A stretch of 64,000 nucleotides of DNA. Origin: an uncultured Brachyspira sp. (GTDB taxonomy: Bacteria > Spirochaetota > Brachyspiria > Brachyspirales > Brachyspiraceae). The stretch lies in assembly GCF_944388875.1 (NCBI RefSeq), contig NZ_CALXKQ010000002.1, forward strand, positions 124,001 to 188,000, in the 5' to 3' direction. Positions 17,875 to 25,850 of the stretch are shown in pieces. The number at the start of each line of letters is the position of its first letter. Position 1 is the stretch's first letter. Below the pieces are notes generated by a model that was not told where the DNA came from, made no database searches, and was given only the letters and a program-made list of their open reading frames with translations. The position numbers were made by a program, and so were the translations under genes.

Positions 17875-17902
17875 TTGACTATTTTTATTATTATGATACA
17901 AT
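17875..17902 (+). promoter_or_regulatory. Candidate promoter of the glycan locus
   Basis: TTGACT (17875-17880), 16-base spacer, TACAAT (17897-17902). Transcription would begin near 17909, so the heptamer repeat falls entirely in the leader. Confidence 0.5.
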
Positions 17903-17926
17903 GAACAGCATTATGTGTACCTTTAT

Positions 17927-18003
17927 AAGCAACAAGCAACAAGCAACAAGCAACAAGCAACAAGCAACAAGCAACAAGCAACAAGCAACAAGCAACAAGC
18001 AAC
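17927..18003 (+). repeat. Heptanucleotide tandem repeat AAGCAAC x11 in the glycan-locus leader
   Basis: Eleven perfect copies of AAGCAAC, 77 bases, between the candidate promoter and the first gene. Seven is not a multiple of three, so a short upstream reading frame from ATG 17913 changes phase with each gained or lost copy. In the present phase it ends at 18107, just past the gene's start. One more copy would end it at the TGA overlapping the start (ATGA at 18097), and one fewer would end it at 18018. Copy number is expected to change by slippage. Confidence 0.95.
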
Positions 18004-18096
18004 AAAACTTTACCATAATAACCTATTCTATACTCGTTGCAAAAAAATATTTTATAAATTCAAGTGTAATCTTAACATCTTTATATGGAGTATTGT

Positions 18097-20496
18097 ATGA
18101 AAAATAAAAATTTATTTTTCAAGATATATATTTCTTTATTAATAGTTTTCATTTTAGTGTTTTCAATTCTTTCTATTTTGGGTAAAAAAAACAGGGTAGG
18201 ATATTTAGGGGAATTTGATTTTTATGGTGATTATGAGCAGCATATAGATAAAACATTAGAATTAAATGGATTGACGAATATAAAAGAAAACTATATGCTT
18301 GATGGCAAGTTAGACAAAGAAGCTATAAAAAATTTTATATTAACGAATGATGCCATTACCAATTATAGTTATGGTTTTAGAATAAAATATTATGATAAAG
18401 TTTTTAGAAATAGTGATATTTATGGAGTGTATATAGATACAAATAAATTGTTAGAGGATAATTCATTCGTCAAGGAAATTGTAATGGGTGAAGATGGAAG
18501 TCCTTTTGGTAATTTAATTTCCACTAAAATAATTAATGAAGATAAAATTGATAATATTAGTTATTCATTAAAATTAAATATAAATATAGTAATGTATGTA
18601 TTATTTTTATTAATTTCTATTTTATTTATTTATATAGTAATATTTAGATATGGAAAAATATGCGTATTAGAATATATATATAATGATTATGAAAATAATT
18701 ATGTTGTATGTGATATATTATTATCTATATCTTCTTTATGGGCTTTTATAAGTATATGGTATGTTATAATTTCTAAACTAATAAATAAGATTAACTATAC
18801 TTCTTATTTACCATATACATTATATCCTTCAATATTCATATTTATTTTTATAATTATTTATTTATATTTATATAAAAATAATAGATTTAATTCAGAATCC
18901 TTGTATATTATTAGAATCAATTTATTATATATGCTTATTTACTTTTTACCTTACACAATTAAAGTTGATATAACTTACTATATAGTTATATTGCATGTAA
19001 TCCTTATATGTTTGACTCCTTTAATAAAAAAAATAAAATTTAGCATAGTTTATAAATTTAATGAAAGTAAAATATACCATATAATTAGGAATCAGATAAT
19101 AACATTATTATTATTTTTTATATTATATTTTCTTTTTGAATCAGGTTTTTACTTATCATTTATCTATTATATAGTATTATCATTTATTTTATTAATGAAA
19201 GATCTTTATTCTATATATAATAAGAGATTAATTAAGATAATATCTGCTGTATTTACTTCTTTAATTATAATATTTATTGCTGGTGAGAATGGAAAGATGT
19301 ATGGTGATTTTTTTAGTGAGGCAAATGTACATACTGCTGGAATGAATTTTAGAAAATATGGTTTATTATCAAATTATTTATTACCGAATTTTACTTTACC
19401 TTATGAAAATGATACTACTATATATACCCATTATCCGCCGCTTCCAGATATTTTTTTTGGTATTTTGTATACGGTATTACCAGAGCCTAAAAATATAAAA
19501 GAGGAATGGTATTCTGCCAATGGTAAAAATTTAAATTTATGGATAGAAAATGTATCACCTATGCTTTGGAAGTATAGATTATTTCCTTATTTATGGCATA
19601 CAATAGGATGTTTTTTTCTATGGGCTTTCTTTAGAAAAATAAGCAATAACCCTTTTTTAGCTATGCTTGCAACATTATTAACTATATTGCAGCCCGCATT
19701 GCTATATTTTAAATTTGGACTTCACTATATGTCTTATGCAACAGCTGTATTAATGGCAACTCCATATTTTATATATAATTTTATTACTACCAACAATAAA
19801 AAATATGCATTTATATTGATATTATTTGGTTTTTTACAAGGAGGATTATCATTTGATTTTATACTTCCTGGAGTAGGAATATCATTTTTATTTTTCTTCT
19901 TTCCGAAGGATGAAAAAATATATTTTGATAAAAAAGTTCTATATTCTTCTATTTTATTAATAATTGGAGTGAGTATAGCTTTTGTATTACATTTTATTCA
20001 AAATTCTTTGTATTTTGGATCTGTAAAAATGGCTTTTGATGATTTATTTGGGGCATTTTTAGGAAGATCTTCTTCTATAGAATATATAGAATCTTCAGGA
20101 TATCTTAAAGTAGAGGGTTTATATTTCTTTAACCTTTTAAGAGAGTATTCTATAATATTATACCAGTATCTTGATGGTACAAAAAGATATTTTACTTTTC
20201 CTATTTTATTGGTATCAGTATTATTAGTATTGATGAATTCCATATTTGGATATTTAAAAATATATTTAAATATAAATTCATTTTTAATAAAAAGCGATTA
20301 TTTTAAAAGATCAGTTTTCTTTTTACTAGGTGCTATAGCTGTCTCATCAGCTTGGGTTCTTATAATGAAACAGCATTCTTTGATTCATGTTAATATAATA
20401 CCAAGACATTTTATAGTATTGTTTTTTGCCATAATAACTTTTCTATTAACTTTTAGTAATTATTTTAATGAAAAGGATAAAAATAATAATGATTAA
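18097..20496 (+). CDS. GT-C-like integral membrane glycosyltransferase (candidate)
   Basis: A 799-residue polytopic membrane protein. The start at 18097 is preferred over the ATG at 18085 because GGAG lies six bases before it. After an N-terminal membrane segment comes a ~110-residue soluble stretch, then a dozen or more hydrophobic helices. The segment SEANVHTAGMNFRKYGLL followed by IYTHYPPLPDIFFG resembles the first acidic loop of GT-C (PMT/ArnT-type) enzymes that use lipid-linked sugars. The exact family is uncertain. It is the first gene of a locus of glycan-modifying enzymes and overlaps the next gene by eight bases. Confidence 0.6.
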   Translation: MKNKNLFFKIYISLLIVFILVFSILSILGKKNRVGYLGEFDFYGDYEQHIDKTLELNGLTNIKENYMLDGKLDKEAIKNFILTNDAITNYSYGFRIKYYDKVFRNSDIYGVYIDTNKLLEDNSFVKEIVMGEDGSPFGNLISTKIINEDKIDNISYSLKLNINIVMYVLFLLISILFIYIVIFRYGKICVLEYIYNDYENNYVVCDILLSISSLWAFISIWYVIISKLINKINYTSYLPYTLYPSIFIFIFIIIYLYLYKNNRFNSESLYIIRINLLYMLIYFLPYTIKVDITYYIVILHVILICLTPLIKKIKFSIVYKFNESKIYHIIRNQIITLLLFFILYFLFESGFYLSFIYYIVLSFILLMKDLYSIYNKRLIKIISAVFTSLIIIFIAGENGKMYGDFFSEANVHTAGMNFRKYGLLSNYLLPNFTLPYENDTTIYTHYPPLPDIFFGILYTVLPEPKNIKEEWYSANGKNLNLWIENVSPMLWKYRLFPYLWHTIGCFFLWAFFRKISNNPFLAMLATLLTILQPALLYFKFGLHYMSYATAVLMATPYFIYNFITTNNKKYAFILILFGFLQGGLSFDFILPGVGISFLFFFFPKDEKIYFDKKVLYSSILLIIGVSIAFVLHFIQNSLYFGSVKMAFDDLFGAFLGRSSSIEYIESSGYLKVEGLYFFNLLREYSIILYQYLDGTKRYFTFPILLVSVLLVLMNSIFGYLKIYLNINSFLIKSDYFKRSVFFLLGAIAVSSAWVLIMKQHSLIHVNIIPRHFIVLFFAIITFLLTFSNYFNEKDKNNND

Positions 20497-24515: not shown

Positions 24516-24547
24516 GTATTAGATTTTTAACATTGGTTATTTTTTTA
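24496..24547 (+). terminator. Terminator at the end of GT9 copy 1
   Basis: The 12 bases 24496-24507 pair perfectly with 24527-24538 and a run of T follows. The stop codon lies in the loop. It should limit read-through into GT9 copy 2, which begins only about 20 bases later. Confidence 0.85.
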
Positions 24548-24567
24548 GAAAATAATAGGAGATAGCA

Positions 24568-25842
24568 ATGTTTTCTCTAGATTTTAAAATAAAAGTAGAT
24601 AGAATATTATTTGGATTTTCTGCATATTTACTTGATAGACTAGCTTTTATAGTTGGAAAATTTAAAAATATGGATCATTCTATAGCTAAAGATAATATGA
24701 AAAATGTTGTTATAGCAAAATATCTAGGATTGGGGAGTATAGTAAGATCTCAGGTTATTATTCAAGATATAAAAAATACATTTCCGAACTGTAAGGTACA
24801 TTATCTCACTAGCAAAAAAAATATTAAAATTTTTGAGATAATACAGAATGTTGATAATATTTTAACCATAGACGACAGTGGAATAATCAGTATGTTTTTT
24901 TCTACTTTAAGATTGGTGATTCAATTGCTTAAGATTAAAGTTGATGCTTTTATAGATTTAGAGGTATATTCAAGATATTCCAGCTGCATTACAGTTATGT
25001 CATGTGCTAGAAATAGATATGGATTTTTTAGATATGATATACACTTACATATAGGAATATATACACACATGCTGTACTTTAATAGTCAGAAGAATATTAC
25101 AGATATATATTTGCAAATATCTAATTATTTAACATCGAGTAATATGTACAATAAAAATATACCTAAATTTATATTTAAAGAAGAGCATAAGAATGAGGTA
25201 GAAAAATATTTTTTAGATAATTTGAAAAATAAAAAAGAAGATGATATTTATATAGGAATAAATGGAAATGCTAGTGAGCTTGCTTTAGAGAGAAGATATC
25301 CGCCTTTGTATTTTGTAGAGCTTATAGAAAATCTTTTGAATAATATAGAAGATAAGAATATAAATATTTTTTTAATAGGTTCACCATCGGAAAAAAAATA
25401 TTTGGAAGATGAGATATATAATAAATTAAATAATAAAAATGGAGTATTTTTGACGGCAGGTATTTTCTCTTTAAATGCTTCTATATATTTGTTATCTAAA
25501 TTTGACTTATTTATAACAACAGATTCAGGCCCTCTTCATTTTGCTTATGCACAAAATGTCAATATAATATCTATATGGGGACCTGGATCATATTGGCATT
25601 ATGGATTACTCAATTATAATAAAGAAATAAATTTAAGCTCAAATGTATATTGTTCTCCATGCTTATATTTAACTAATAAAGTTTCATGTGAAGGTAATAA
25701 TATATGCTTGCAGATGATTTATCCCCAAATAATATATAATGAAACTATTAAGTTGCTTAAAATGAATGATACTAGAACATATATAGAAAATGAAAATAAA
25801 ATAATAAAAAAAGACTATTATCTAGGCAGTATAATAAGATAA
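24568..25842 (+). CDS. GT9 family glycosyltransferase (heptosyltransferase-like), copy 2
   Basis: A 424-residue paralogue of the preceding gene. DNA from 24568 to about 25580 is almost identical to 23088-24100, with only a few synonymous changes visible, and residues 1-339 are the same. The donor side then differs (GPGSYWHYGLL in place of GPCSNLHYSFP), and the gene ends YYLGSIIR without the repeat tail. AGGAG precedes the start. It follows a strong terminator with no room for a promoter, so it may be poorly expressed and serve as a recombination partner. The last codons form part of a long terminator stem. Confidence 0.82.
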   Translation: MFSLDFKIKVDRILFGFSAYLLDRLAFIVGKFKNMDHSIAKDNMKNVVIAKYLGLGSIVRSQVIIQDIKNTFPNCKVHYLTSKKNIKIFEIIQNVDNILTIDDSGIISMFFSTLRLVIQLLKIKVDAFIDLEVYSRYSSCITVMSCARNRYGFFRYDIHLHIGIYTHMLYFNSQKNITDIYLQISNYLTSSNMYNKNIPKFIFKEEHKNEVEKYFLDNLKNKKEDDIYIGINGNASELALERRYPPLYFVELIENLLNNIEDKNINIFLIGSPSEKKYLEDEIYNKLNNKNGVFLTAGIFSLNASIYLLSKFDLFITTDSGPLHFAYAQNVNIISIWGPGSYWHYGLLNYNKEINLSSNVYCSPCLYLTNKVSCEGNNICLQMIYPQIIYNETIKLLKMNDTRTYIENENKIIKKDYYLGSIIR

Positions 25843-25850
25843 TAGTCTTT
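25810..25850. terminator. Bidirectional terminator between GT9 copy 2 and the thiolase
   Basis: Fourteen bases at 25810-25823 pair perfectly with 25837-25850 around a 13-base loop; A and T runs flank both sides. It overlaps the last codons of the GT9 gene. Confidence 0.85.

Follow-up and report, generated by a model that had tools for sequence, protein, structure and literature searches.

Putative repeat switches of three kinds in a probable surface-glycan locus of Brachyspira

The window analysed here is a stretch of 64,000 nucleotides (nt) with 27% GC from an uncultured Brachyspira species, whose genome assembly comprises 3,111,819 bases. It contains a locus in which a promoter-like element and a short leader open reading frame (ORF) are followed by genes for a polytopic membrane protein, a radical SAM/SPASM enzyme, two class I methyltransferases and two family 9 glycosyltransferases (GT9a and GT9b; Table 1). 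Five simple-sequence repeats (SSRs) of three types are embedded in this series: AAGCAAC ×11, G10, G9, G13 and CAGAC ×15. All five lie where an earlier, sequence-only reading of this DNA (the original prediction) had put them, the poly-G tracts falling in three consecutive genes, and their concentration is far beyond chance. Frames computed for all five arrays reveal that the non-triplet repeats are placed where a change in length alters the frame. Past the G tracts and the pentamer, the off-frames run only a few codons before meeting a stop, as the prediction had stated. We consider it likely that these genes form a contingency operon, varied by slipped-strand mispairing, for a surface glycan of Brachyspira (presumably lipooligosaccharide, or another glycan of the cell surface), with three mechanistically different repeat switches. 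Each effect on expression proposed below is deduced from sequence. The prediction had also treated the locus as one transcription unit, a claim that goes further than the sequence does, with a terminator-like hairpin (24496-24538) separating the two GT9 genes.

Table 1 Features of the repeat-bearing locus, in window coordinates
Feature	Position	Strand	Remarks
σ70-like promoter TTGACT-16/17-TACAAT	17875-17902	+	10/12 matches, extended TG
Leader ORF, assembled frame	17913-18107	+	ATG, heptamer array, stop overlapping next start (ATGAAAAATAA)
AAGCAAC ×11	17927-18003 (79 nt to 18005, counting a partial unit)	+	Probably a lower bound on copy number
Polytopic membrane protein, tentatively GT-C-like, 799 amino acids	18097-20496	+	Shine–Dalgarno sequence GGAG at 18087
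Radical SAM/SPASM gene	20489-21335	+	Frame-split (OFF) at G10; one full-length frame at G9 or G12
G10 tract	21078-21087	+	Tract-less relatives encode Asn-Arg-Gly-Gly at the site
Class I methyltransferase 1	21338-22207	+	ON at G9
G9 tract	21872-21880	+	Gly-Gly of the methyltransferase ...GGYILITTP motif
Class I methyltransferase 2	22220-23086	+	ON at G13
G13 tract	22750-22762	+	In methyltransferase 2, at the motif position equivalent to the G9 tract of methyltransferase 1
GT9 family glycosyltransferase a	23088-24515	+	Pfam Glyco_transf_9
CAGAC ×15	24364-24438 (77 nt to 24440, counting a partial unit)	+	Just past the conserved C-terminal YYLGSI; probably a minimum
Terminator-like hairpin with U-run	24496-24538	+	ΔG about -19 kcal/mol; between GT9a and GT9b
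GT9 family glycosyltransferase b	24568-25842	+	Pfam Glyco_transf_9; proposed target of the pentamer and terminator

The G tracts are very probably ON/OFF frame switches of the radical-SAM gene and the two methyltransferases. Pfam assigns Radical_SAM and SPASM domains to the former, separated into different frames by G10, and Methyltransf_23 to both of the latter. Pattern searches of the 3.11-Mb assembly, from which all genome-wide SSR counts given here derive, find G runs of nine or more on either strand only as the three tracts of this locus; with every such run held by three neighbouring genes, the clustering cannot be put down to chance. Genus comparisons, here and below, draw on genomes of 26 Brachyspira species, 20 of which possess G tracts. 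Orthologous chromosomal methyltransferases carry G8, G9, G10, G12, G13 or no tract at all, giving both ON and OFF states. Each tract lies on Gly codons native to its enzyme, within or between the catalytic domains, and slippage there would frameshift the enzyme ON or OFF. These three genes, with homologous tracts that vary in length and state between species, bear out the prediction of a contingency-type glycan locus. Poly-G glycan loci of Campylobacter, Neisseria and Helicobacter share the coding tract, the frameshift between ON and OFF and the homologues of differing tract length. The Brachyspira locus differs in its spirochaete host, in tracts that arise where methyltransferase and radical-SAM genes natively encode Gly, and in joining poly-G to two other switch types. 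A further G9 tract was noted in another genome (G002, L080:4248-5375, minus strand), within the first 25 codons (a signal-peptide-like region) of a secreted or outer-membrane-like protein, making this gene a candidate phase-variable surface protein.

The heptamer occupies a leader whose layout (promoter, usually a Shine–Dalgarno (SD) sequence and ATG, non-triplet array, spacer, gene start) recurs in dozens of paralogues across the genus. Leader units seen in these paralogues comprise AAAC, AAGCAAC, CAACA, CACTA, TACAA, CACTT, CAGCAAA and GTCTACA. Over 37 leaders the unit length is 4 nt (17 leaders), 7 nt (11) or 5 nt (9), and never a multiple of three. Statistics on frames and promoters were gathered from 32 homologous long leaders with readable upstream sequence, the frames being set against 1,000 dinucleotide shuffles. 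A promoter-like element scoring at least 10/12 is present in 31 of the 32 (4.7 expected), and an ATG lies 3–5 nt ahead of the array in 22 (2.5 expected), 18 of which also have an SD sequence (0.2 expected). Not one of them keeps open the frame that is fused to the main gene. The two non-fused exit frames reach the main start codon without a stop in 18 and 22 leaders, such that 28 of 32 have at least one open exit (4.5 expected; highest of all shuffles, 11) and 12 have both (0.1 expected). Clustering at 70% identity reduces these leaders to 12 groups, and ten of the 12 representatives keep an open exit.

At the window's own leader, the stop reached from 11 copies ends at +11 relative to the main ATG and that from 12 copies at +4 (ATGA), both overlapping the downstream start; ten copies lead to a stop at -78. 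Array length would set the exit frame of a ribosome leaving the leader ORF. Two exits would bring it to a stop overlapping the start codon (+4 or +11), favouring coupled initiation, and the third would release it about 70–90 nt upstream (78 nt here), lowering expression. The original prediction had expected graded expression from this repeat. Non-triplet units of 4, 5 and 7 nt, an ATG and SD ahead of the array and exits open to the start point instead to reading frame rather than leader length. We lean slightly towards translation coupling as the mechanism, in which ribosome delivery to the start codon would raise initiation at the membrane-protein gene. The Haemophilus lipooligosaccharide genes lic1 and lic2 (CAAT repeats) likewise have a start codon upstream of a non-triplet array whose length picks the frame. 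There the array is part of the enzyme's own ORF, at the 5′ end, whereas the Brachyspira array belongs to a separate leader ORF whose exits overlap the enzyme start, the fused frame being closed in all 32 long leaders. A terminator scan detected no terminator in the leader. Sequestration of the SD by a leader hairpin, seen in the fold of the window's leader, was rejected on finding the consensus fold of 20 leaders empty of conserved structure. Stop-free repeat units were considered as a sign of translation and set aside as weak, A/C-rich units being mostly stop-free anyway.

The CAGAC pentamer is sited differently. Arrays of at least four units are found in 20 of the 26 Brachyspira species versus none of 221 other sampled Spirochaetota genomes. 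Those examined lie mostly at the 3′ ends of glycan-related genes, past the last Pfam domain, their hosts encoding GT9, GT11 and GT2 glycosyltransferases, methyltransferases, one cytidylyltransferase and a TupA-like ATP-grasp protein. Downstream comes a conserved segment and then, in most cases, a hairpin with a U-run. In each of the 17 modules with a hairpin, one or more exit frames run through to it without a stop (4.6 expected; highest of 1,000 shuffles, 10), and the remaining frames usually end 40–63 nt ahead of it. The hairpin arms covary, with 94% of cells paired, both-side changes in three pairs and a score matched by none of 500 shuffles, a modest result in that it rests on 13 related sequences. 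The following gene lies on the same strand in all testable cases except one, mostly 107–237 nt beyond the array.

In the window, the long frame out of the array stops at 24515, within the hairpin (+19), and the other two stop at 24445 (-51) and 24456 (-40). The GT9a catalytic domain is whole in every frame, making a plain ON/OFF role unlikely. Rather, the array would set where GT9a translation ends relative to the hairpin: the long frame would carry the ribosome into it, letting transcription run on into GT9b, and the two shorter frames would release the ribosome 40–51 nt before it, letting the terminator form. On balance, we think it probable that the pentamer acts on GT9b through such an attenuator.

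This arrangement resembles the GCAGA attenuator of Streptococcus gallolyticus pil1/pil3, where a translated non-triplet pentamer precedes a hairpin and then the regulated gene (PMC3894217). Experiments on pil1 have proven that expression is low when translation stops 39–49 nt ahead of the terminator and high when it stops immediately before or inside it (PMC3894217). The window shares the translated array, here in the GT9a frame, followed by an intrinsic terminator-like element. It also shares the frame geometry, in which the short frame ends tens of nucleotides before the hairpin (at least 28 nt) and the long one at or inside it. In pil1 a leader peptide of its own, ahead of the first gene, houses the array, whereas CAGAC is attached to an intact enzyme gene at its 3′ end. 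The Brachyspira module, which recurs at many glycan genes, would regulate whichever gene follows it within an operon. Lacking a stand-alone leader peptide, the module is better said to work like pil1 than to belong with it, and antitermination, proven in pil1, is here proposed by analogy.

An alternative is a classical contingency locus in which every repeat toggles its own gene and the leader heptamer tunes expression by spacing. Toggling of the host gene holds for the three G tracts, and the leader and 3′ arrays are indeed non-triplet and length-polymorphic in relatives. We nevertheless regard this account as unlikely for the locus as a whole: the pentamer lies past the GT9 domain and leaves its enzyme intact in all frames, and spacing control would require neither an ATG and SD, nor non-triplet units, nor exits held open to the gene start. 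The pentamer, originally predicted to switch the fourth gene that holds it, is better read as a switch of the next gene through the terminator. The anticipated 2^n independent states cannot be counted as 2^5, given that three exits lead out of the leader and that the pentamer's action falls on a neighbouring gene.

CAGAC might alternatively do nothing more than vary the C-terminal tail of its enzyme, the hairpin being an ordinary gene-end terminator. The module does encode tails such as (DQTRP)n with frame-dependent ends, and C-terminal switching by SSRs reportedly occurs in Helicobacter canadensis (PMC2823697). A role limited to the tail would leave unaccounted for the hairpin reached by at least one frame in 17 of 17 modules and the co-directional next gene in nearly all. 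It also sits poorly with a module common to unrelated enzyme families, contrary to a protein-specific tail function, and we judge it improbable. Least plausible is that the non-homopolymer arrays are neutral variable-number tandem repeats whose slippage is tolerated at gene edges, as the many long arrays elsewhere in the genome, those followed up adjoining housekeeping genes, might suggest; the flanking architecture of leaders and 3′ modules is conserved far beyond shuffles, and the hairpin covaries.

The arrays have lengths that must be read with the assembly in mind. Several contigs of this short-read assembly start or stop within arrays of 76–84 nt, the arrays at three of them (L062-L064) measuring exactly 77 nt; in a sample of 20 contig starts, six fall within arrays, as do further contig ends. 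The heptamer (79 nt) and pentamer (77 nt) coincide with this ceiling of about 77 nt, the range that an assembler with k near 77 would leave on collapsing a longer array; in relatives with better assemblies, arrays reach 171 nt (L074). Since both counts sit at the ceiling, ×11 and ×15 are probably minima, and the assembled frames are not taken as the current state of either switch. The G tracts fall below the ceiling. Within a single species, sister arrays on eight B. hyodysenteriae plasmids could be compared, with flanks 97–100% identical. Between isolates, AACAG arrays have 12, 13, 11, 7, 9 and 7 copies, ACAGA arrays 9.4, 10.4, 10.4, 8.4, 9.4 and 9.4, and the AGACC array of a fucosyltransferase 10, 10, 10, 10, 9, 9 and 4. 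Copy differences between near-identical flanks establish frame-changing length variation among isolates as real for such arrays.

The membrane protein behind the leader belongs to a large paralogous family in the Brachyspira genomes searched, whose members have in common an N-terminal domain of about 190 residues. An AlphaFold model (mean predicted local distance difference test score, pLDDT, of 51) has a confident N-terminal α/β domain, the remainder being low-confidence helices. The protein itself has no match in Pfam or NCBIfam and, by Foldseek, no meaningful match to PDB folds. A profile search of the PDB returned weak Piezo matches only, which we put down to composition. Among the predicted gene functions, radical SAM/SPASM, both methyltransferases and both GT9 enzymes are upheld by Pfam; GT-C is suggested only by a GT87 match (8e-14) in one of 18 paralogues.

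Several points weigh against three dedicated switches in a glycan locus. The window's leader ATG has no clear SD and lies near the predicted transcription start, a less typical arrangement than most relatives have, and the membrane-protein gene, which has a good SD of its own, may be translated regardless of the leader. The consensus fold revealed no conserved structure that would force such coupling, and any effect of it is of uncertain size. The membrane protein is weakly indicated to be a GT-C glycosyltransferase. Polymorphism at the level of isolates comes from sister arrays in B. hyodysenteriae, a species other than the window's. Paralogues and modules share ancestry, and shuffle tests therefore overstate their independence. 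Long arrays elsewhere in the genome lie near housekeeping genes, some of them intergenic, and an array alone is thus no proof of a switch; the argument for switching rests on the conserved surroundings.

Leader and 3′-module switches both recur across the genus. It is an even call whether Brachyspira uses these as two reusable cassettes undescribed in such form, a leader-ORF frame switch and a CAGAC inter-gene attenuator, which together with poly-G would give combinatorial glycan variation. The open-access literature searched yielded no account of repeat-driven phase variation in Brachyspira, in agreement with the original prediction, which was aware of no described equivalent in this group. 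Long homopolymers and tandem repeats of B. hyodysenteriae are mentioned there only as a sequencing complication, in one genome paper (PMC8845278). Brachyspira species cause swine dysentery and intestinal spirochaetosis, and lipooligosaccharide is considered a contributor to disease (PMC2897892, PMC4267127). If the proposed switches operate, single cultures would be mixtures of glycan types, with consequences for strain typing and bacterin vaccines, and short-read assemblies would systematically lose array-length information. An unrelated phylum would have, within its operons, a counterpart of the attenuation principle proven in Streptococcus. From a long read, the frame-to-terminator and frame-to-start rules would predict the state of each locus.

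The locus has relatives in, among others, B. hampsonii 30446, Brachyspira sp. G79 and B. hyodysenteriae B-78, and was found on none of the plasmids searched. GT9a and GT9b differ at two positions across their first 1013 nt and diverge abruptly afterwards, and the 5′ stretches of the two methyltransferase genes are nearly identical to each other, suggesting recent duplication or gene conversion. Related loci of B. hyodysenteriae, B. hampsonii and one further genome (G004) have a single GT9 without CAGAC. In another genome (G020, L076:1-5000), a different cassette adjoins a thiolase gene resembling the thiolase that flanks the window's locus; it comprises a membrane protein with a heptamer leader, a GT2 and a methyltransferase whose G14 tract leaves it out of frame (OFF). 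This chromosomal site may therefore host exchangeable phase-variable cassettes.

The rfb/glycan plasmid of B. hyodysenteriae B-78 (L067, L068) bears no fewer than five pentamer arrays, and several of these are polymorphic among isolates. Part of the plasmid gene content of this species is reported to correlate with virulence (PMC4267127); expression state may vary besides gene content. In genome G002, a DNA methylase gene (L079:5172-6902, minus strand) whose product has Mrr_cat and N6_N4_Mtase (E 4e-42) domains bears CAGAC ×11.8 near its 5′ end, which marks it as a candidate for a phase-variable methyltransferase (phasevarion) of Brachyspira. Contig starts L153, L155, L156, L158 and L159 of the window genome (G000) consist of heptamer arrays of 77–84 nt (GCTGTGT, CGATAGT, AGAGTTT, CGGTTTG and GAGTGCA), adjoining housekeeping genes and breaking the short-read assembly. 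Elsewhere in the window, a small secreted-protein-like gene has a 275-bp tandem duplication at its start (33391-33915; 1.9 copies, 96% matches), and a tetratricopeptide-like gene contains a 102-bp repeat (37465-38097; 6.2 copies).

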